Made by a program: the position numbers and the translations under genes. The notes under the pieces are model-generated. The model saw only the letters and a program-made list of their open reading frames with translations. It was not told where the DNA came from and did not search any database. Shown in pieces: positions 8,140-52,224 of a DNA stretch of 64,000 bases. Within the stretch, counting starts at the first letter, position 1. Every line of letters starts with the position of its first letter. The DNA comes from Pontibacillus halophilus JSM 076056 = DSM 19796 (GTDB lineage Bacteria; Bacillota; Bacilli; Bacillales; BH030062): the NCBI RefSeq assembly GCF_000425205.1, contig NZ_AULI01000014.1, positions 1 through 64,000 on the forward strand, given 5' to 3'.

Positions 8140-8496
8140 CTACTCCTCCAGTTCCTGACGTAATTTAAGCAACCCCTGTTCGAGATCTAATGCAGTTGGA
8201 ACATCTTGAAGATGGATACCTAAGTCAATGAGCGTCATAGCGACAGCTGGCTGGATTCCTGTTAGAACCACTTTAGCCCCCATTAAGTCAGACATAGACA
8301 CAACATCCCCTAAGACCTTCGCAATAAATGAGTCAATAATATCAACGGACGTTAAATCAATGACGACTCCAGTCGCACCACTTTCGTGGATTTTATTTAA
8401 TAGATCTTCCTGGAACTGAATGGCGGTTTGGTCATCCAGGTCAATTTGTATAGAAATAAGCAAATAATTATGAAGCTTTAGAATAGGGATTCTCAC
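8140..8496 (-). CDS. rsbS: Stressosome core STAS protein RsbS
   Basis: 118 aa, essentially one STAS domain. The serine in [14 protein letters not shown] (near residue 58) corresponds to the residue phosphorylated by RsbT. It forms the stressosome core with RsbR and sequesters RsbT. Confidence 0.97.
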
Positions 8497-42567: not shown

Positions 42568-43329
42568 TCATAAGTTATGAGATGCGTATTCCTTCATGGC
42601 TTGTCGCAAGTATTCAGCCAAGTGCGGGTGAACGCGGTCATAGTTTCTCTTGAAGTCTGGGTGGGTGACGTATAACTCTCCTAACCCTTCATAAACTTCC
42701 TTCGTTGGGGTGTAGAAGGCATTAATCCAGTTGTAGTGCTCTACTACAAGCTGTTGGGCTCTCTTCCCCTCTGGCGCTTCCCCTTCTTCAATAAGCTCGG
42801 CGAAGCGTCGATTTAATTCTTTATTCTTTTCCTTCATTTCATCAAACTCTTCTTTCTTCCAAGACTTGATGTTATTCCAAGATTCCTTAATCAATCCTTC
42901 TGCATCCGGGCCATATTCCTTGATTAGTTCACGTTCATACTCCTGTTGTTGTTCCTTTTGGAAACCGTCGAACATTTCTTTCGGGTTCATCATCCATTCT
43001 CCCTTCTTCGCTTCAATCGTTCGGTCGATTGTATCAACCAGTTGCTGAAGACGTTCTGCTTTCTGAACGAGGTGCTTGCGATGGGTTTTCAATGCTTGAA
43101 TGACATGGAAATCCTGCTCTTGGAGCAGCTCACGAATTGTCTCAAGGTTCATGCCTAATTCCCGAAAGAATAAGACCTGCTGCAACAACTCCAGCTCCCG
43201 CTCCTCATAATAACGGTATCCATTTTCTCCCTTGTACGCAGGCATTAGCAATCCAATCTCGTCGTAATAATGCAACGTTCTAACGCTCACCCCAGATAAC
43301 CCTGCAACTTCTTTCACGGTATATGCCAT
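42568..43329 (-). CDS. MerR family regulator with TipAS drug-binding domain (Mta/TipA type)
   Basis: 253 aa from the ATG at 43329 (TAGGAGG). Residues 1-70: MerR helix-turn-helix (YTVKEVAGLSGVSVRTLHYYDEIGLL). A long coiled coil follows (about 75-120), then a TipAS domain (residues 130-253, PDAEGLIKESWNNIKSW and YNWINAFYTPTKEVYEGL). Such regulators bind hydrophobic or thiopeptide drugs and activate efflux and their own genes. The promoter has the long spacer typical of MerR control. Confidence 0.92.
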   Translation of the reverse strand: MAYTVKEVAGLSGVSVRTLHYYDEIGLLMPAYKGENGYRYYEERELELLQQVLFFRELGMNLETIRELLQEQDFHVIQALKTHRKHLVQKAERLQQLVDTIDRTIEAKKGEWMMNPKEMFDGFQKEQQQEYERELIKEYGPDAEGLIKESWNNIKSWKKEEFDEMKEKNKELNRRFAELIEEGEAPEGKRAQQLVVEHYNWINAFYTPTKEVYEGLGELYVTHPDFKRNYDRVHPHLAEYLRQAMKEYASHNL

Positions 43330-43349
43330 CGAATCACCTCCTATAAATG

Positions 43350-43459: not shown

Positions 43460-43475
43460 TGTAACGTAGCTTACA
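43460..43475. promoter_or_regulatory. Crp/Fnr-type operator, site 1 (ynjB operon)
   Basis: Perfect dyad TGTAA-CGTAGC-TTACA. Its centre (43467.5) is 30.5 bp upstream of the first base of TATAAT (43498-43503), giving a centre near -42.5, the class II activator position. The -35 hexamer at 17 bp spacing is AGTAAA, so the promoter should need an activator. GTTACAC/GTGTAAC (43439-43465) adds a wider overlapping dyad. Confidence 0.7.
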
Positions 43476-43497
43476 GTAAATAGGTATAGAATATTTA

Positions 43498-43503
43498 TAT
43501 AAT
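43498..43503 (+). promoter_or_regulatory. -10 box of the YnjBCD-type operon
   Basis: Consensus TATAAT, 26 bases upstream of the start codon of the substrate-binding protein gene, without a recognisable -35. Confidence 0.55.
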
Positions 43504-43529
43504 GAGACTATCATGTTGGAGGTCAAGAA

Positions 43530-44762
43530 ATGAAAAAGAGTTGGGTATGGATATTCATTGTTCTTATCCTTGCAGCCTGTGGTTCAGGTAATGAAAATGA
43601 GGGAAACTTGGACCTTTCAGAAACAAACTTTGAAGACATATCAGCACAAGCAGCTGGTACGACCGTAGATCTCCATATGTGGGGTGGAGATGAAGGGATT
43701 AACCAGTATATCGATGAATGGGTAGCTCCTAAGCTAGAAGAAGAACACAATATAACGTTGAAACGAACACCAGTAGATACGAAGGACATCCTGTCAAAGT
43801 TGTACAATGAGAAACTTGCCAACAAAGAGGATGGAACCGTTGATGTCATTTGGCTCAACGGAGAGAACTTTAAAAATGCAAAAGAAAATGAATTGCTCTA
43901 TGGACCCTTTACAGACCATCTTCCAGCATACCAATCCTATTATGATACGGATTCTCTTTCGTATAACAATGACTTTGGAACAAGCGTTGATGGGCTTGAA
44001 GCCCCTTGGGGCAAAGTTCAATTCACCTTTCTGTACGACACAGAGAAAGTTGACAGCCCTCCGCAATCCTTTGAGGAGTTAAAACAATGGATTCATGAGA
44101 ATCCGGGTAAATTCACTTACCCAAACCCAGATGATTTCTCGGGTAATGCCTTTGTTCGTCATCTTCTTTATCAAGCAAGTGACTCAACCGAGTCCCTCGT
44201 TCAAGAACCTTACTCTGACGAAAAAGCAGATGCACTAGGCAAAGAAGTGTGGACTTATTTAAAGGAGATTAAATCAGACTTATGGCGTAATGGGGAGCAC
44301 TATCCCTCTTCCTTAACCGAACTCGACCGCTTGTATAGTCAAGGCGATGTGTGGATGACCATGGGGTATAACGAAGCGCGCTCTGAACACCTCATTGACC
44401 AAGGTGTCTTCCCAGAGAGTACGAAATCTTTCATTATGGAACCGGGTTCACTTGGGAACACTCATTTCCTTGCAATTCCGTTTAATAGCGGGAACAAAGC
44501 CGGAGCAATTACGTCGATTAACTATTTACTTAGTCCTGAAGCGCAATATGTGAAGCTTCAACCGAAATACTGGGGAGACAATACCCCAATCAGTACTGAT
44601 AACTTACCTAAAGAACAACGTGAGAAATTTGAATCCTTAGACCGCGGAGCTAGTGTATTACCTGCAAGGGAACTTGAGGATCGCTTTCTACCAGAGGTCG
44701 ATTCTCAGTATGTAGATTGGATAAAGGAGAACTGGCAGAATGAGATTTTCAAGACAGATTAA
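43530..44762 (+). CDS. YnjB-type ABC transporter substrate-binding lipoprotein
   Basis: 410 aa. Lipobox ILAAC near residue 15. Family 1 extracellular solute-binding fold: VDLHMWGGDEGINQYIDEWVA, DVIWLNGENF, LEAPWGKVQFTFLYDTEKV and INYLLSPEAQ. This fits E. coli YnjB, of unknown substrate, related to binders of thiamine, spermidine and iron. First gene of a seven-gene operon; RBS TTGGAGG. Confidence 0.85.
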   Translation: MKKSWVWIFIVLILAACGSGNENEGNLDLSETNFEDISAQAAGTTVDLHMWGGDEGINQYIDEWVAPKLEEEHNITLKRTPVDTKDILSKLYNEKLANKEDGTVDVIWLNGENFKNAKENELLYGPFTDHLPAYQSYYDTDSLSYNNDFGTSVDGLEAPWGKVQFTFLYDTEKVDSPPQSFEELKQWIHENPGKFTYPNPDDFSGNAFVRHLLYQASDSTESLVQEPYSDEKADALGKEVWTYLKEIKSDLWRNGEHYPSSLTELDRLYSQGDVWMTMGYNEARSEHLIDQGVFPESTKSFIMEPGSLGNTHFLAIPFNSGNKAGAITSINYLLSPEAQYVKLQPKYWGDNTPISTDNLPKEQREKFESLDRGASVLPARELEDRFLPEVDSQYVDWIKENWQNEIFKTD

Positions 44763-45600
44763 AGTGTGGGGCATGCTCGCCCCTACTCTCCTCTTTCTCA
44801 TCATCCCTCTTTACGGGCTCTACTCAGGCATCAAACGTAGTTTGATTCATGAAGGCTTATTTAGCTTTCACTATTATTCAGAGTTATTTCAGAGATCGGT
44901 GTTTTGGGAGTCACTATTATACAGTATTGGAATCGCACTCGTCTCAACTACGTTATCCCTTCTTATTGGGCTTTCTTTTACACGGTGGTTCTATCCATAC
45001 GTGAATCGCTTGTCAGGTAAGCTAAGTGTCTGGGTGTCCATGCTCTTCCCCCATTTCGTCTGGGGCTATGTGGTACTCATCTTGTTTCAACAGAGTGGAT
45101 TGCTTGCTCAATTGGGGATAGCCCTAGGGATATGGGAAGCCACCAATGAAGTGCCTGTTGTCACAAATGATGCGCTTGGAATTGGGATCTTGCTGACTTA
45201 CATCGGGAAAGAAGTTCCCTTTGTCATCTTAATGCTACTTCCGGTTTATATCGGAATGAATACACGGTATGACGATATGGTGCGAACGCTCGGTGGAGGG
45301 AAATGGAGACGATTTAAAGATGCAGAGTGGCCTTGGATTTATCCAATCCTAATGGAAACTGGCATCATCTTATTTGCCTTTATCATGAGTGCGTTTGAAG
45401 TTCCATTCCTACTTGGGTCAACCTTCAAAGAGATGGTCTCTATCGTAACTTATGACTGGTTCTACTCTGGAGACTTTAGTGAACGTCCGCTCGCTCTAGC
45501 GGCGATGATTGTGACGAGTGTAGTAATTGGATTGGTGGCCTTTGTCATGTTTAGACTAACTAGCAAGACACGCTGGCTCTTATCGAAAGGAGCGCGATAA
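44740..45600 (+). CDS. YnjC-type ABC permease, first half
   Basis: 286 aa, six transmembrane helices. The EAA-type loop that docks the ATPase is around MVRTLGGGKWRRFKDAEWPWIYP. The gene overlaps the binding protein gene by 23 bases. E. coli YnjC is one long fused permease; here two separate genes cover it. Confidence 0.85.
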   Translation: MRFSRQIKVWGMLAPTLLFLIIPLYGLYSGIKRSLIHEGLFSFHYYSELFQRSVFWESLLYSIGIALVSTTLSLLIGLSFTRWFYPYVNRLSGKLSVWVSMLFPHFVWGYVVLILFQQSGLLAQLGIALGIWEATNEVPVVTNDALGIGILLTYIGKEVPFVILMLLPVYIGMNTRYDDMVRTLGGGKWRRFKDAEWPWIYPILMETGIILFAFIMSAFEVPFLLGSTFKEMVSIVTYDWFYSGDFSERPLALAAMIVTSVVIGLVAFVMFRLTSKTRWLLSKGAR

Positions 45601-45601
45601 G

Positions 45602-46399
45602 ATGAAGCGAAACAAATGGGTATTCTTTATTCTCACGTTTACATTCTCTATTTTCCCAGTACTGTTCCTGCTAGTGAAAAGCGTAACAGAGAACTTTCAG
45701 TTGAGTGATGGGACAAAGCTCCGCTTTACACTGGATGGATGGGGAGTCCTTCTTTCAGAGAACCAGTTAGCTGAAGCGACATGGACGTCTATTGGGATTG
45801 GTTTCGTCGTTGTTCTTCTTAATTTATGGGTAGGGATTACAGGTGGGCGCGTACTCGCGTTCGAGAGCTTTCGAGGGAAGAGCGCAGTCGAAACCGCAAT
45901 ACTATTCCCGCTAATCATCCCCGTACTTGCTATCACACTAGGCATCCATCTCGTATTTATACGAATTGGATTGGCAGATACCTGGTATGGAGTTGTGCTC
46001 ATTCATCTAGTCCCGACCATCCCCTATACGATACGAATAATGAGAAATAGTTATGTGACAATCGGCCACGATATGCTCGAACAAGCTAAGACACTCGGCG
46101 GCTCAGGTCTTGCACGATTTATATCTATTGAAGTGCCGTTGTTAAAGCCTGCGATTCGTAGCGCTGTCTTTCTCATTTTCGTCATTAGCTTAAGTCAATA
46201 TGTCGTTACCACCATTATTGGTGGAGGGAATGTTGTGACACTCGCACTCGTGTACTTCCCGTTCTTGCAATCCGCCAATAGCGCCATTATTGCAGCGTTC
46301 TCCATATGGTTCGCCGTAATACCGCTACTCTTTTATCTAGTATTTGAACTGCTACTAACCTTGCTACCTTACCAAAAACGATGGAGGACGCACGAATGA
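45602..46399 (+). CDS. YnjC-type ABC permease, second half
   Basis: 265 aa, six transmembrane helices. EAA loop HDMLEQAKTLGGSGLARFISIEVPLL matches the family pattern. It follows the first permease by one base, so the two form a heterodimeric channel. Confidence 0.87.
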   Translation: MKRNKWVFFILTFTFSIFPVLFLLVKSVTENFQLSDGTKLRFTLDGWGVLLSENQLAEATWTSIGIGFVVVLLNLWVGITGGRVLAFESFRGKSAVETAILFPLIIPVLAITLGIHLVFIRIGLADTWYGVVLIHLVPTIPYTIRIMRNSYVTIGHDMLEQAKTLGGSGLARFISIEVPLLKPAIRSAVFLIFVISLSQYVVTTIIGGGNVVTLALVYFPFLQSANSAIIAAFSIWFAVIPLLFYLVFELLLTLLPYQKRWRTHE

Positions 46400-47394
46400 C
46401 GAAACCTTATCTATCCTTGCAACAAGCTTCCAAAGCGTTCCATCACCGCACGGTACTGGAACACATCCACTTTAGTATGGAGAAAGGGGAAATCCTAAGC
46501 ATTGTAGGGCCATCCGGCAGTGGGAAATCTACATTGCTTCGCTGTCTTGCTGGACTAGAGACGTTCTCAACGGGGAAGCTATACATTAACGGACAGGATG
46601 TTACGGATGTGGAAGCGAATAAGCGGTCCGTCAGCTATGTCTTTCAACAGCCGTTGCTCTTTCCACATATGAATATCCTTCAAAATATCGGATATGGACT
46701 ACAATTCAAGAAGGTATCAAAGCAAAAGCGTAAAGAGCTCTCTTCTGAACTCTTACAACAAATTGGACTACGTGATTATGCTACAGCCTATCCACACGAA
46801 CTTTCCGGAGGACAACAACAGCGCGTATCCTTAGCACGCTCCTTGGCTGTTTCCCCTGATTTGTTGCTGCTTGATGAGCCCTTCTCAAGCTTAGATCAGC
46901 AACTCCGGATTGAGATGCGCGCGTGGGTTCGCCAGTTTCTGAAGGCAGAAGGAACAACAGCTATTTTCATTACGCACGACCGTGAAGAAGCCATGATGAT
47001 GGGAGACCGGGTGGCGGTCTTCCAGGACGGGCGCTTTCAACAAGTGGGCGAACCACAAGCCGTCTATCGAAAGCCAGCCACCCCATTTGTCGCGAAGTTC
47101 TACAGCGATACTTTATTGCTCGATGACACGCGCTACATCCCTGTTCACTGTCTAAAGCTTCAGAAGAGCAATCAGGCTGATGCATTCAAGGCTACAGTGC
47201 AACACCCTGTATTCGTACACGGGAAGACGCTGTATACGGTCTTTGTACAAGCACTCGACCAAAGGGTCACACTTGAAGGCGACCTAACACTTGAAGTAAA
47301 CGAAACCGTCTATCTCTCTTATCACGCACGCGATATACAAACATTTCACAACGACCAGGAGGTGCACGATGAAACAGAAAAAGAATTGGATTAA
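46396..47394 (+). CDS. YnjD-type ABC transporter ATP-binding protein
   Basis: 332 aa from the ATG at 46396 (GGAGG 8 bases upstream). Walker A GPSGSGKST, Q-loop FQQPLLFPH, signature LSGGQQQRVSLARSL, Walker B LLLLDEPFSSLD and ITHDREEA. A C-terminal extension of about 110 residues resembles the regulatory TOBE-like part of importers, longer than E. coli YnjD. Overlaps both neighbours. Confidence 0.9.
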   Translation: MTKPYLSLQQASKAFHHRTVLEHIHFSMEKGEILSIVGPSGSGKSTLLRCLAGLETFSTGKLYINGQDVTDVEANKRSVSYVFQQPLLFPHMNILQNIGYGLQFKKVSKQKRKELSSELLQQIGLRDYATAYPHELSGGQQQRVSLARSLAVSPDLLLLDEPFSSLDQQLRIEMRAWVRQFLKAEGTTAIFITHDREEAMMMGDRVAVFQDGRFQQVGEPQAVYRKPATPFVAKFYSDTLLLDDTRYIPVHCLKLQKSNQADAFKATVQHPVFVHGKTLYTVFVQALDQRVTLEGDLTLEVNETVYLSYHARDIQTFHNDQEVHDETEKELD

Positions 47395-48034
47395 GGCAGC
47401 ACTTGTACTTATAATCTTCCTCGGTTTGGCTTACTTTGTTCGATTTGAGCTCAACATTGGTGGCCAGGAAATTAAAGAATTTATCTTATCCTTTGGTTGG
47501 TGGGCACCATTCATCTTCTTTCTTATTTATACAATTGGACCCATTGTATTCTTCCCTACTTCCGTGTTATCCCTTGCGGCTGGATTAGCCTTTGGATTCT
47601 GGCCCGGAGTATTATACATCTGGTTCGGCGCTACAGGCGCTGCTGCAACAGGATATATTATGGCACGCTTCTTTGGGGATTCTGTCTTACGATTTCAGAA
47701 TGTATCATGGTCTCAACAAATTTATAAGCAAGTGGAGAAACGAGGTTTCCTTTATGTCTTAATCCTACGTCTCATTCCACTCGTAGGCTTTGATATCTTA
47801 AGCTACATTTCAGGCATTGCGCGTGTACGCTTTGGCCCTTTCTTATTGGCAACCTTTATTGGGATGTTACCTGGTACGATTGCCTATGCCTTCCTCGGTT
47901 CAAGCTTAGGAACCGGGAATATCACTTATATCCTTATTGCTGTCGGCATTTTCTTATTGCTGATTCTAATTACGTATTTGTTCCGGGCTCGCGTCAAGCG
48001 CTTCCTCGGAATTAGCCAGGAAGGAGGCAATTAA
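47369..48034 (+). CDS. TVP38/TMEM64 (VTT domain) membrane protein
   Basis: 221 aa, about five to six membrane segments. VTT-domain features: PTSVLSLAAGLAFGFWPG, GAAATGYIMARFFG, LRLIPLVGFDILSYISGIA and ATFIGMLPGTIAYAFLGSSLG. Family members act in lipid scrambling or membrane-lipid handling. In E. coli two such genes (ydjX, ydjZ) belong to the ydj-ynj cluster. It overlaps the ATPase gene by 26 bases. Confidence 0.88.
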   Translation: MKQKKNWIKAALVLIIFLGLAYFVRFELNIGGQEIKEFILSFGWWAPFIFFLIYTIGPIVFFPTSVLSLAAGLAFGFWPGVLYIWFGATGAAATGYIMARFFGDSVLRFQNVSWSQQIYKQVEKRGFLYVLILRLIPLVGFDILSYISGIARVRFGPFLLATFIGMLPGTIAYAFLGSSLGTGNITYILIAVGIFLLLILITYLFRARVKRFLGISQEGGN

Positions 48035-48036
48035 CG

Positions 48037-48618
48037 ATGCTTGATACGCATGCCAGGAAGTACGTCCAGCCTTCCATTGAGTACACGTCAAAGCGTCTTA
48101 CACGCTTAGGACTCTCAGCAAATCAAGTAACCGTTATTGCTTTCCTACTAGGAATCATAGCTGCAGGTGTATACGCGGTTGGCTATCCGATTCTTGGGGT
48201 GGTCTTGCTATGGGTATCTGGCTTCCTTGATGCTGTAGATGGTACGATGGCGCGACAAACGAAGCCATCTGCCTTTGGAACGGTTATGGACATTACGTTC
48301 GATCGTATCGTTGAAATTGCCATCATATTTGCAGTAGCGTACTTACATCCAGAAGCAATGTGGCCGTTACTCCTGTTAAGCGGTTCAATCATCTTCTCGA
48401 TGACGGTATTTCTAACGGTTGGAGCCATCTCTGAGAAGCAGGGAATCAAGTCCTTTTACTATCAGGCAGGTGCAGCAGAACGAACGGAAGGGTTCATCTT
48501 ATTTAGTATCATGATGTTGTTCCCATCTATAGTCGGCTGGACGACGCTTTTATTTTTCGTGATTGAGGTATATACAGCTATACAACGTTTTATGGAAGCA
48601 AAGAAAATTCTATCTTAA
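48037..48618 (+). CDS. YnjF-type CDP-alcohol phosphatidyltransferase
   Basis: 193 aa with about five helices. Catalytic motif FLDAVDGTMAR then QTKPSAF, G, TVMD, ITFD: the DG-x2-AR-x7-G-x3-D-x3-D form with all three active-site aspartates present. It makes a phosphodiester from a CDP-activated lipid and an unknown alcohol. Translation start is 2 bases after the VTT gene. Confidence 0.88.
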   Translation: MLDTHARKYVQPSIEYTSKRLTRLGLSANQVTVIAFLLGIIAAGVYAVGYPILGVVLLWVSGFLDAVDGTMARQTKPSAFGTVMDITFDRIVEIAIIFAVAYLHPEAMWPLLLLSGSIIFSMTVFLTVGAISEKQGIKSFYYQAGAAERTEGFILFSIMMLFPSIVGWTTLLFFVIEVYTAIQRFMEAKKILS

Positions 48619-48639
48619 CTTGTACAAGGAGGCTCAATT

Positions 48640-50064
48640 ATGAAGAAGTATGACATCATCGTGATTGGCGGAGGTTCAGGAGGACTAACCGTTGCTTCTG
48701 GCGCCGCTTCCCTCGGTGCAAAGACTGCTTTAATCGAGAAACGGGATACGCTTGGAGGGGACTGCCTCCACTTCGGATGTGTACCTTCCAAAGCGTTCAT
48801 TGAAGCGGCGAACGAGGTTCATGCCGCTAAACATATTCAAGACCTAGGAATTGAGACATCTGGCAAGATAAGCTTGAAAGCGGTCAATGACCGTGTCCGA
48901 CAAGCGATTGCTCACATACAAGAGCATGACAGCATTGAGCGATTTGAAGAGCTTGGTGTAGACGTGTATAACGGGAAAGCGACATTTAAGAACGACCATG
49001 AGATTGACATTGAAGGTCAAGAATCACTCTATGGGAAGCGCATTGTCATCTCTACCGGTTCCTCTCCGATGGTACCACCTATTGAAGGTCTAGATGAAGT
49101 TGATTTCATCACGAATGAATCGGTCTTTACGATGGAGCAATTGCCAGAGAAAATGACTTTCATCGGAGGAGGACCTATAGGGCTTGAGCTTGCACAGGCG
49201 ATGTCTAGACTTGGATCAGAAGTGACGGTCATCGAAGCGGGCCCTACCCTTCTTGGAAAGGAAGACCAAGACATTCAGAAGCAGGCTCAAGCAATCCTAG
49301 AAAGAGAGCTTCATGTTGTTACAGGGGCTAGCGTGCAACGCGTTAGGATGGAGAATGGAAAGAAAATGGTGTACTACAGTGTGGATGGGGAGGAGACATC
49401 AATTGCCTCTGATGAAATCTTCCTCGCTACAGGGCGTACGCCTAATTCTGGCTCACTACAGCTCGACAATGCGGGCGTTGAGACAGACAAGAAAGGCTTC
49501 ATTTCCGTCGATGCCACTTTACGAACGAACGTGGGGCATATCTTCGCAATTGGAGACATCAACGGGACGTTACCGTTCACTCATGTGGCTGGAGAAGAAG
49601 GAAAGCTTGTCGTCCAAAACGCACTATACGGCTTGAGCCGCAAAATGTCTTATGATTATATGCCTTGGAACACCTACCTCACACCAGAAGTCTTCCACGT
49701 TGGCCTAACACAGCAAGAAGCACAAGAAAAACACGAGGAAGTACTGATCTATACGAATCAACTAGAAGAGGTGGATCGATTCGTAACCGACCAATCCTAT
49801 GAAGGGTTTGTCAAGATTATTACAGATACGAAGGGGAAAATAGTAGGCGCGCATGCCATTGGTACAGGCGCAGGAGACTGGATGCAGACCGTTGTCCAAG
49901 CTATGGCAGAAGGCAATAAGATTGGCGACCTGTCTAACATGGTCTACCCTTATCCGAACCACGCAGAAGCGGTTAAGCGTACTGCAGACCAGTATTGGAG
50001 AAACAAACTTTTCTCTGGACCGGTTCAACAAGTATCAAGCCTTTTCCTTAAATGGTTCCGATAG
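48640..50064 (+). CDS. FAD-dependent pyridine nucleotide-disulfide oxidoreductase
   Basis: 474 aa class I disulfide reductase. FAD-binding GGGSGGLTVASGAA, redox pair in GGDCLHFGCVPSKA (C-x4-C near residues 46 and 51), NAD-binding GGGPIGLELAQAM, IFAIGDI, and the C-terminal YPYPNHAEAVKRTADQYW. Lacks the N-terminal metal domain and C-terminal Cys pair of mercuric reductase and does not sit with 2-oxoacid dehydrogenase genes. The same subfamily is found near or fused to VTT proteins, so its substrate is probably linked to the membrane operon. Confidence 0.88.
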   Translation: MKKYDIIVIGGGSGGLTVASGAASLGAKTALIEKRDTLGGDCLHFGCVPSKAFIEAANEVHAAKHIQDLGIETSGKISLKAVNDRVRQAIAHIQEHDSIERFEELGVDVYNGKATFKNDHEIDIEGQESLYGKRIVISTGSSPMVPPIEGLDEVDFITNESVFTMEQLPEKMTFIGGGPIGLELAQAMSRLGSEVTVIEAGPTLLGKEDQDIQKQAQAILERELHVVTGASVQRVRMENGKKMVYYSVDGEETSIASDEIFLATGRTPNSGSLQLDNAGVETDKKGFISVDATLRTNVGHIFAIGDINGTLPFTHVAGEEGKLVVQNALYGLSRKMSYDYMPWNTYLTPEVFHVGLTQQEAQEKHEEVLIYTNQLEEVDRFVTDQSYEGFVKIITDTKGKIVGAHAIGTGAGDWMQTVVQAMAEGNKIGDLSNMVYPYPNHAEAVKRTADQYWRNKLFSGPVQQVSSLFLKWFR

Positions 50065-50100
50065 AAAGAAAGCTGGTTGTGGCTATTCCACATCCAGCAA
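50064..50100. terminator. Terminator between the operon and the Crp/Fnr gene
   Basis: GCTGGTTGTGG (50072-50082) pairs with CCACATCCAGC (50088-50098), one mismatch. On the minus strand it is followed by TTTCTTTC and its loop contains the regulator's stop codon. Confidence 0.7.
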
Positions 50101-50763
50101 TTCTTTCACCCTTTGTGCATGAATGGCGAAATGAGGGTCCTTCTTCAGAAGACCTTCTTTCTTTAACTGGCTAATAACCGCACTCGTCGTTTCTCTTGTA
50201 GAGCCAATCATATTAGCCAAGTCGTTGTGGGTGAGCTTCATTTCAATCGTCTGCCAATCCTGTTGGCGTTTGCCTGTTTTCTCGCTCAACATGAGCAGCA
50301 AATAAAGCAATCGATTCTTCACATCACTTAAGGCAATCTTCTCACTTATGGAGTACACATCCTTAAGTCGAGCTGACAAGATGTTAATAAACTTCAGCGC
50401 AATCTTTGGATTGCTCTCCACATATTGCTCGAACTGTTCACGTCCTAAGATGCATACGTATGTATCTACCATCGCTTCTGCGTACATTTGGTCATCGGTT
50501 AATGACAGCGTAGACGTCTCCCCAAAGATATTTCCATCAACAAGAATATCGACAGTGAACTGGCGTCCATCTGCATTCATACGGTATAAACGAACCTGAC
50601 CTTTCTTTAACAGAAACAGGGCCGGAATAGGATTTTCAGGAGATGTAATGACAGTCCCTTTCTTAATCGGCTTCATTTCACTCATCTCATCCAATACTTC
50701 TAGTTCATCTTGCGGCAATTCATCGAATAGGCTGATTTGGGAAATCATCATTAATTTATCCAA
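50083..50763 (-). CDS. Crp/Fnr family transcriptional regulator
   Basis: 226 aa from a TTG (GAGGTG upstream). Residues 15-125 are a cyclic-nucleotide-binding-type beta-roll (KKGTVITSP, GQVRLYRM, GNIFGETSTLSL), then the dimer helix. The HTH near residues 178-205 is LTHNDLANMIGSTRETTSAVISQLKKEGLL; recognition helix STRETTSAVIS keeps the R-E pair that reads TG/CA in this family. Only one cysteine is present, so no FNR-type iron-sulfur cluster. Candidate activator of the flanking operon and osmC. Confidence 0.9.
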   Translation of the reverse strand: MDKLMMISQISLFDELPQDELEVLDEMSEMKPIKKGTVITSPENPIPALFLLKKGQVRLYRMNADGRQFTVDILVDGNIFGETSTLSLTDDQMYAEAMVDTYVCILGREQFEQYVESNPKIALKFINILSARLKDVYSISEKIALSDVKNRLLYLLLMLSEKTGKRQQDWQTIEMKLTHNDLANMIGSTRETTSAVISQLKKEGLLKKDPHFAIHAQRVKELLDVE

Positions 50764-50821
50764 AGCGCTTCACCTCATTTTATGCGTAATTTAACAACGA
50801 GAAGGAAACAGGAGGGATTAT

Positions 50822-51046
50822 ATGACCACCTTATATACGATTGATGGCTGTATCAAATGCTTCCAAGCGAAACGGTACCTACAAGAACAAGGGATCCCGT
50901 TCCAAGAGATTAATATTCTAAAGGTGCCAGAAGCCATTCCCGAGCTTAAGGAAACAGCGGGCGAAGTCGTCACACCTGTACTTCATGACGAAGCTACCGT
51001 CCTAATCGGCCTCAATATTTTAAATTATAAACAATCCATCCATTAA
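50822..51046 (+). CDS. Glutaredoxin-like protein
   Basis: 74 aa. TIDGCIKCFQAKRYLQ carries the CxxC pair (residues 10-13) and VVTPVLHDEATVLIGLN has the cis-proline. RBS CAGGAGGG. It is divergent from the Crp/Fnr gene, 58 bases apart, and lies in a run of thiol-related genes. Confidence 0.85.
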   Translation: MTTLYTIDGCIKCFQAKRYLQEQGIPFQEINILKVPEAIPELKETAGEVVTPVLHDEATVLIGLNILNYKQSIH

Positions 51047-51169
51047 ATGAAAATTTCTTACCTAACGTTTTATTCTTTTTTCATTGTGAGTGTGAAATTG
51101 GAATAAAGGGTTAGGTTTCTTTATGTTTACACTCCAACATGCTGGGAAATCGAACACTGTATGCGCATG

Positions 51170-51185
51170 TGTAAGACAGCTTACA
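51170..51185. promoter_or_regulatory. Crp/Fnr-type operator, site 2 (osmC)
   Basis: Perfect dyad TGTAA-GACAGC-TTACA. Centre 51177.5 is 30.5 bp upstream of the -10 TATACT (51208-51213), the same geometry as site 1. No -35 box at the usual distance. Confidence 0.7.
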
Positions 51186-51227
51186 TCATCACATACGACA
51201 TGTGTTCTATACTAAGGATGTAAAACA

Positions 51228-51277: not shown

Positions 51278-51718
51278 ATGGCTAACCAAACATTTCATAT
51301 TACGACAAACTCAGAAGGTATGCGCACAGACATCGTCGCACCTCACGATAACGAACTAATTGTTGATGAACCAGCCAATATGGGTGGTACGAATAAAGGT
51401 GCCGATCCTCTTTCTACACTACTTGCATCACTAGCTGGTTGCGAGAACGTCATTGCGAACATGGTTGCGAAAGAAATGGACTTCGACCTTCAGAATATTA
51501 AATTTGATATTAAAGGATCTCTAGACCCTCGTGGCCTAATGGGAGACGAAAGCGTTCGCCCATACTTCCAAACGGTAGAAGTTAACGCAACAATTGAAAC
51601 GAGCGAATCAGAAGAACGTATTAAGGAACTACAAGAGAAAACGGACGCACGTTGCCCTGTTTATACAACGCTACAAGCAGCAGGCGTTGAACTTACACCG
51701 AACTGGGTGAAAGCGTAA
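51278..51718 (+). CDS. OsmC family peroxiredoxin-like protein
   Basis: 146 aa from the ATG at 51278 (AAGGAGG). GADPLSTLLASLAGCENVIANMVAKE contains the first redox cysteine (near residue 57), and DARCPVYTTLQ the second. OsmC/Ohr-type proteins reduce organic hydroperoxides or bind persulfide-type thiols. Behind the second Crp/Fnr-type site. Confidence 0.88.
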   Translation: MANQTFHITTNSEGMRTDIVAPHDNELIVDEPANMGGTNKGADPLSTLLASLAGCENVIANMVAKEMDFDLQNIKFDIKGSLDPRGLMGDESVRPYFQTVEVNATIETSESEERIKELQEKTDARCPVYTTLQAAGVELTPNWVKA

Positions 51719-51769: not shown

Positions 51770-52090
51770 TTATAGATTTTGCTCAACTAGGAAGTCGCGA
51801 ACCTCGTCTGGAGTTTTCGCATACGCACTGTGAAGGTGAGCTAGCTTCTCGCCTTTTTGGAATACGAGTAAGCTAGGGATTCCCATTACTTCGTATTTCT
51901 GTGCTAATTCTGGTACATCATCACGGTTGATTTCGTACCATGTGACGTGGTCATACTCATCTAGAATATCTCCAATGAACATGTTCATGCGTTGGCAATC
52001 TGGGCACCATGTTCCGTAGAATTTCACAATGATTGGTGTTTCGCTTTGAATAACTTCGTTAAATTGTTCTGTCGTTTCAAGTGCTTTCAT
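51770..52090 (-). CDS. Thioredoxin family protein
   Basis: 106 aa from the second ATG (8 bases after GGAG); the first ATG one codon earlier is also possible. Active site YGTWCPDCQRM (WCxxC near residues 29-32) and cis-proline in VMGIPSLLVFQKGE. The CPDC variant is common in YtpP-like thioredoxins of Firmicutes. Convergent with osmC. Confidence 0.9.
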   Translation of the reverse strand: MKALETTEQFNEVIQSETPIIVKFYGTWCPDCQRMNMFIGDILDEYDHVTWYEINRDDVPELAQKYEVMGIPSLLVFQKGEKLAHLHSAYAKTPDEVRDFLVEQNL

Positions 52091-52224
52091 CATACATACT
52101 CCTTTATGTTGAATTAATTATAGTATAGCGTTTGTGGTTACACATGTCTGTAAGCCAGCCTACTAGACATATGCCTATTCTACAGAAAAATCCACGAATA
52201 CCCAACCCAAGCGCCCGTCCTAGG

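Follow-up and report, generated by a model that had tools for sequence, protein, structure and literature searches.

The 64-kb window analyzed here (64,000 nucleotides of Pontibacillus halophilus JSM 076056 = DSM 19796, contig NZ_AULI01000014.1) encodes a member of the Crp/Fnr superfamily that combines a cNMP-binding domain with a Crp-type helix-turn-helix (HTH). On either side of its gene lies a copy of the dyad TGTAA-N6-TTACA, one upstream of an operon headed by the substrate-binding protein (SBP) of a YnjB-type ABC transporter and the other upstream of osmC (Table 1). Together with comparable sites in related genomes, these dyads outline a set of thiol- and sulfur-handling genes that is very probably controlled by this regulator. 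A preliminary description of the DNA had reported both dyads with their N6 sequences, a distance of exactly 30.5 bp from each dyad center to the first base of a -10 box, the lack of a -35 box and a Crp/Fnr gene between the two sites. Exact re-matching returned the same two dyads, which are the only exact matches in the window; the re-measured distances (to 43498 and 51208) are identical; the best -35 match at spacers of 15-19 is 3 of 6 bases at both promoters; and the regulator gene is real, all three of its Pfam models scoring above their cut-offs. As to the dyad before osmC, the site is in place, but the gene more likely starts at the ATG at 51278, which has AGGAGG upstream, than at 51227. 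When one mismatch was allowed, the window held eight matches against a mean of 2.23 in shuffled sequences, and none of 100 shuffles reached eight.

Table 1. Predicted regulatory sites, promoter elements and genes of the locus (window coordinates)
Feature	Position	Strand	Remarks
MerR-type regulator with MerR and TipAS domains	42568-43332	-	Divergent from the SBP operon
TGTAACGTAGCTTACA, predicted Crp/Fnr site	43460..43475	+	Upstream of the SBP (YnjB-type) operon; exact dyad match
-10 box TATAAT	43498..43503	+	30.5 bp from dyad center; no -35 box
ABC transporter SBP, NF008633/PRK11622 family, YnjB-type	43530..44762	+	456.6 bits against a cut-off of 203
ABC permease	44740..45600	+	NCBIfam permease matches, all below cut-off; no match in the Pfam scan
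Second ABC permease	45602..46399	+	Open reading frame; assigned by position and look of the sequence alone
ABC ATPase	46381..47394	+	PF00005
VTT-domain membrane protein	47369..48034	+	PF09335; relatives have their own TGTAA site in some genomes
CDP-alcohol phosphatidyltransferase family protein	48037..48618	+	PF01066
FAD/pyridine nucleotide-disulfide oxidoreductase	48640..50064	+	PF07992, PF02852
Crp/Fnr-family regulator, 226 amino acids, single Cys104	50083..50763	-	PF00027, PF13545, PF00325; predicted binder of both sites
Glutaredoxin-like protein, 74 amino acids	50822..51046	+	PF00462; divergent from the regulator
TGTAAGACAGCTTACA, predicted Crp/Fnr site	51170..51185	+	Upstream of osmC; exact dyad match
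-10 box TATACT	51208..51213	+	30.5 bp from dyad center; no -35 box
OsmC-family protein	51278..51718	+	PF02566 above its cut-off; the OsmC_like_Se domain model does not reach its own
Thioredoxin-like protein	51770..52093	-	Open reading frame; a scanned relative matches PF00085

The same dyad dominates the surroundings of the regulator in other genomes. A scan of the genome collection gave 79 regulator loci, the first 61 of which (L040-L100, 1.13 Mb, relatives down to 45% identity) were searched for dyads of all 1024 five-base half-sites at spacers of 0-12. TGTAA-N6-TTACA ranked first: it occurs 89 times where 2.14 copies would be expected and is present in 48 of the 61 loci. Spacers N5, N7 and N8 of the same half-site gave one, two and five copies, and TGTGA-N6-TCACA gave six against 0.83 expected, in four loci. 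We accordingly set aside TGTGA-N6-TCACA as the box, which is far rarer near the regulator, and likewise a GlnR/TnrA-type reading (TGTNA-N7-TNACA), TGTAA-N7 being at background (2 against 2.1). Alignment of 85 sites yields the consensus aaTGTAA-K-N-Y-R-N-M-TTACA. These neighborhood counts include near-duplicate genomes (L049/L092 and L045/L046 among them), so that p-values overstate independence.

The promoter layout recurs along with the dyad. We examined 94 site-gene pairs whose gene start is 15-130 nt away for a -10 box (TA...T, with at least 4 of 6 bases matching). The first base of such a box is 29.5 bp from the dyad center in 46 of 91 pairs and 30.5 bp from it in 10 of 91, whereas the remainder of this DNA matches at a rate of 2.1%. 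Of the 62 promoters that have a -10 box in this zone, 60 show no -35 match better than 3 of 6 bases. The spacing of 30.5 bp thus does not hold as a general rule: the mode in relatives is 29.5 bp, and both promoters of the window fall in the minor class. Judged by this arrangement, the predicted promoters of the relatives are of class II type, in which the site replaces the -35 box and a -10 box is present.

We then compared genomes with and without the regulator. Orthologs (at least 59% identity) were found in 18 of 101 genomes, the window genome included, and a further genome (G063), in which the gene is split by a frame change, was counted as regulator-bearing; G076 (46% identity) and G054 (39%) were placed among the genomes without it. 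The comparison took the best 30 of 38 SBP-bearing and the best 30 of 59 osmC-bearing genomes, with the window genome included, and looked 400 nt upstream of each gene. For the SBP gene, this stretch holds an exact site in 11 of the 17 regulator-bearing genomes and in none of the 13 others (p=2.3e-4); for osmC, the counts are 8 of 14 and 0 of 16 (p=5e-4), many osmC matches in the genomes that lack the regulator being only about 45-60% identical and possibly paralogs. Leaving out the window genome changes these values to 4e-4 and 1e-3. In the majority of relatives that have the regulator, then, the sites are kept; had they not been, the claim of the preliminary description would by its own criterion have fallen.

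A genome-wide pattern tells the two sets apart more sharply when the -10 box is added to the dyad. In the 3.67-Mb window genome, the bare dyad is mildly overrepresented (nine copies, as compared with five when the pattern is reversed), and the composite of dyad and TANNNT 21-22 nt downstream occurs six times against none reversed. Across the 19 genomes with the regulator there are 76 composites (4.0 per genome; 14 reversed), and across the 82 without it 63 (0.77 per genome; 97 reversed), the per-genome comparison over all 101 giving p=1.3e-10. The K..M form of the dyad, with 93 against 49 reversed in genomes with the regulator and 144 against 141 in those without, is much less sharp than the composite; both this form and the composite were picked after the sites had been seen, the controls being the reversed patterns and the genomes without the regulator. 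When the surroundings of all 139 composites were read, 46 of the 76 proved to lie between genes and to be followed by a gene start at 15-150 nt, as opposed to 12 of the 63 (p=9e-7); of the remainder of the 63, 29 lie in genes and 22 lack such a start.

The genes behind these promoter-like composites form a coherent group. In the genomes with the regulator, 43 of the 46 precede thiol-redox, transporter-operon or regulator families (OsmC, SBP and glutaredoxin-like, seven each; Spx, six; VTT and AhpC/TSA-type peroxiredoxin-like, four each; DoxX, three; thioredoxin-like, two; and the regulator itself, a CDP-alcohol phosphatidyltransferase and a pyridine nucleotide oxidoreductase, one each) and three precede other genes, a tally that is a description and not an independent test, the families having been drawn from regulator-bearing loci. 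The Spx figure is six and not seven after hand correction, the assignment at L240 being glutaredoxin-like. The 12 promoter-like composites of the genomes without the regulator include four in the same families (three OsmC, all of a second Crp/Fnr clade discussed below, and one peroxiredoxin-like). By eye, no nitrogen genes were seen behind the exact-dyad sites among the 46. In the 61 neighborhoods, sites 15-185 nt upstream of a gene precede osmC in 17 loci, a glutaredoxin-like gene in 14, the gene of a small membrane protein whose match to DUF1440 is weak and below cut-off also in 14, the regulator in 13, the SBP gene in nine and a thioredoxin-like gene in six; in some Pontibacillus loci, the thioredoxin-like and SBP genes share one TGTAA site divergently.

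The label "local" given to the regulon in the preliminary description proved too narrow, since in the window genome (G000) sites also precede a second spx gene (G000:C6:73964; L217:3965-4360), an AhpC/TSA gene (C12:70192) and doxX (C8). The label "redox" fits the families OsmC, glutaredoxin-like, Spx, peroxiredoxin-like and thioredoxin-like. Spx genes with a site occur in six regulator-bearing genomes; the other spx copy of the window genome (C5:80070), 64% identical and by eye near a MecA-like gene, has no exact site. One further composite (G000:C25:15566) has no clear target gene. We rejected the dyads on C2 and C18, which lie inside genes, as promoter sites, and G000:C5:195975 as a member of the regulon, this looking by eye like a palindrome of another, cre-like kind in front of an ABC ATPase gene. 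Two other occurrences are recorded for their own sake: an exact site with a -10 box inside the operon's ABC ATPase gene in G004 and G002 (L227:1481, L233:1516), possibly an internal promoter, and a site with a -10 box before a protein that by eye resembles a rhodanese in G087, which has no regulator (L195:1528).

Several observations weigh against a simple correspondence between regulator, site and target. An exact site within 400 nt is lacking before the SBP gene in 6 of the 17 regulator-bearing genomes (one of them, G003, having one about 700 nt upstream) and before osmC in 6 of 14. One of the eight osmC sites (G026, -372) stands before a glutaredoxin-like gene, and p rises to 4e-3 without it; when the farther sites of G003 and G007 are counted, the SBP comparison becomes 12 of 17 against 1 of 13 (p=7e-4). 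G096, which has no ortholog, carries a one-mismatch site with, by eye, the 29.5-bp spacing. The bare dyad shows hardly any enrichment (286 copies and 233 reversed in the 19 regulator-bearing genomes, 774 and 817 in the 82 others) and differs weakly between the two sets, so that much of the signal comes from the -10 box; and of the 76 composites, 15 lie inside genes and 15 more lack a gene start 15-150 nt downstream. In the window itself, the gap between the regulator and the glutaredoxin-like gene holds no site with fewer than four mismatches, even though many relatives have a TGTAA site there, and the -10 box of doxX (TACCTT) is poor.

A further case is G007, labeled Pontibacillus like G003 and G004, in which the gene order is conserved except that the regulator gene is missing (the stretch between the end of the FAD oxidoreductase gene and the start of osmC runs from 8308 to 8473 in its locus L209 and from 8400 to 9364 in L210). 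Its osmC has neither an exact nor a one-mismatch site within 400 nt upstream, yet the intact site shared by the SBP and thioredoxin-like genes is kept. This pattern fits a recent loss of the regulator but counts against a strict rule.

The predicted structure of the regulator has the CRP-type fold (mean pLDDT 79.8), with GlxR and mycobacterial CRP as the best Protein Data Bank (PDB) fold matches (TM 0.88), followed by NtcA (TM 0.79). In sequence, NtcA is its best match both in NCBIfam and in PDB; the scores nevertheless fall far below the cut-offs of the NtcA equivalog TIGR03697 (80.2 bits against 244.95), the FNR model PRK11161 (62.1 against 228) and the CRP equivalog (60.6 against 266). Its one cysteine, Cys104, sits in strand 101-107, the last of the beta-roll. 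This residue is present in 47 of 54 alignment rows and is the sole cysteine of the aligned stretch in 39 of those 47, a count that for several rows covers the matched stretch only; the seven rows without it are all found on the same side of a branch whose support is weak (80/57). A single cysteine so widely shared suggests a thiol sensor. The recognition helix reads RETTSA. It keeps the equivalents of Arg180 and Glu181 (CRP numbering), and the position of Arg185 is occupied by Ala195. The A in place of G in the half-site may be due to the loss of this arginine. Against binding of TGTAA by this regulator stands the retained Glu191, whose CRP counterpart reads the G:C of TGTGA.

Among known systems, NtcA comes closest in box and promoter layout. 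According to PMC3898017, canonical NtcA promoters have a box GTA-N8-TAC centered about 41.5 before the start and a -10 box of the form TAN3T, a class II arrangement; box and layout are the same here, and TGTAA-N6-TTACA contains GTA-N8-TAC. Thus, the regulator resembles an NtcA-type class II activator in its predicted mode of action, and by the equivalog cut-off is not NtcA. It also differs from NtcA in having, by eye, no nitrogen genes among its promoter-like targets, in its helix RETTSA and in its taxon. CRP binds TGTGA-N6-TCACA, a box of the same geometry as TGTAA-N6-TTACA. The likeness to this box put forward in the preliminary description stands as far as the 16-bp geometry goes, but the NtcA box is closer. 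GlxR and mycobacterial CRP are the best fold matches; the fourth position of each half-site is A here and not G. FNR also acts by class II activation. FNR and Bacillus Fnr share with the regulator the Crp/Fnr fold and a dyad of the 16-bp type and differ from it in box, model score and the Fe-S cysteine set, in place of which the regulator has only Cys104. In Bacillota, Spx, PerR, OhrR and CstR-type regulators act in thiol or sulfur stress. Their physiology overlaps with that of the present targets (Spx, OsmC, thioredoxin and peroxiredoxin-type genes), though they belong to different regulator families, and here a Crp/Fnr-type site stands before the second spx gene itself.

These observations can be combined into a predicted mechanism. 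A dimer of the regulator would bind aaTGTAA-K-N-Y-R-N-M-TTACA, cover the position of the missing -35 box and recruit RNA polymerase there, the -10 box lying 21-22 nt downstream of the site. Its targets in the window genome would be the SBP/ABC/VTT/FAD-oxidoreductase operon, osmC, the second spx, the peroxiredoxin-like gene and probably doxX; in relatives, its own gene and those of a glutaredoxin-like and a thioredoxin-like protein would be added. The regulator probably responds to a thiol or sulfur redox state, with Cys104 as the candidate sensor. We put the probability that the regulator binds the dyad and activates thiol- and sulfur-handling genes in class II fashion, probably in response to such a signal, at roughly 85%. 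What is observed directly is where the sites lie, how they are spaced and that they go together with the regulator gene; that this protein binds them, that it activates and does not repress, and what it responds to we infer, an interpretation that the comparative evidence supports well. A narrower version is distinctly tentative: that the protein is a single-cysteine thiol sensor (of disulfide, persulfide or electrophile), that modification of Cys104 switches its DNA binding and that it sits above the second Spx in a two-step redox cascade.

The sites might instead be bound by another Crp/Fnr paralog, such as the 231-amino-acid protein at G000:C6:114461, the regulator of the window being a mere neighbor. 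The window genome does have this second strong HTH_Crp_2 protein, and a separate Crp/Fnr clade (24-27% identity, three aligned) has the same kind of site by its own OsmC gene. In G055, G095 and G047, members of this distant group adjoin a different OsmC gene, in the first two also, by eye, near a TusA-like gene; in G009, a Crp/Fnr relative matched over residues 31-210 lies beside an OsmC gene, and same-type sites, exact or with one mismatch, are found at L211, L213 and L214 and also at L212. The link of Crp/Fnr proteins to OsmC and sulfur-carrier genes may thus be older and broader than the present regulon. As an account of the sites in the window, however, binding by a paralog is improbable, as the sites go with the ortholog of this regulator: in G001 and G007, where the best matches to it are distant paralogs (E 2e-22 and 1e-20), neither SBP nor osmC has an exact site within 400 nt, and in the 13 loci mentioned above the site stands before this regulator's own start.

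Repression through the dyad by the same protein appears still less plausible. Crp/Fnr proteins can repress, and NtcA does so from a box downstream of the -35 (PMC3898017); the 29.5-30.5 bp to the -10 box without a -35 box is nonetheless an activator layout, and a repressor operator gives no reason for the loss of the -35 box. It is very unlikely that the dyad is the operator of the MerR/TipAS regulator and that this protein controls the SBP operon, as its domains and its divergent adjacency to the SBP gene could suggest, given that L210 and L150 keep the site with a thioredoxin-like divergent neighbor and no MerR and that the same dyad also precedes osmC, the glutaredoxin-like gene, spx and the Crp/Fnr gene. 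That the two dyads are palindromes arisen by chance in A+T-rich sequence between genes, a reading for which the 9-against-5 count in the window genome and the weak overall enrichment of the bare dyad would speak, is hardly credible in the face of the comparative tests on neighborhood, spacing and regulator presence.

With activation by the regulator as the preferred reading, the kind of system is a known one, while the regulon, its target set and its single-cysteine regulator appear undescribed in the literature searched. No description of this Crp/Fnr group was found in the open-license literature, in which the slash form "Crp/Fnr" is not searchable, nor did we find there a paper on a TGTAA-N6-TTACA box in Bacillota, the matches to the box spelling being cyanobacterial only. 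What emerges for this Crp/Fnr group, which is present in many Bacillaceae and their relatives, is a binding site, a promoter layout and a list of targets, all of them concrete enough to test. The YnjB-type transporter operon, a stated role for which was not found in the literature, is tied to thiol-redox genes, and a second spx gene is placed behind a Crp/Fnr-type site. Finally, the lone and widely shared cysteine of the regulator makes the question of what it senses an easy one to test.

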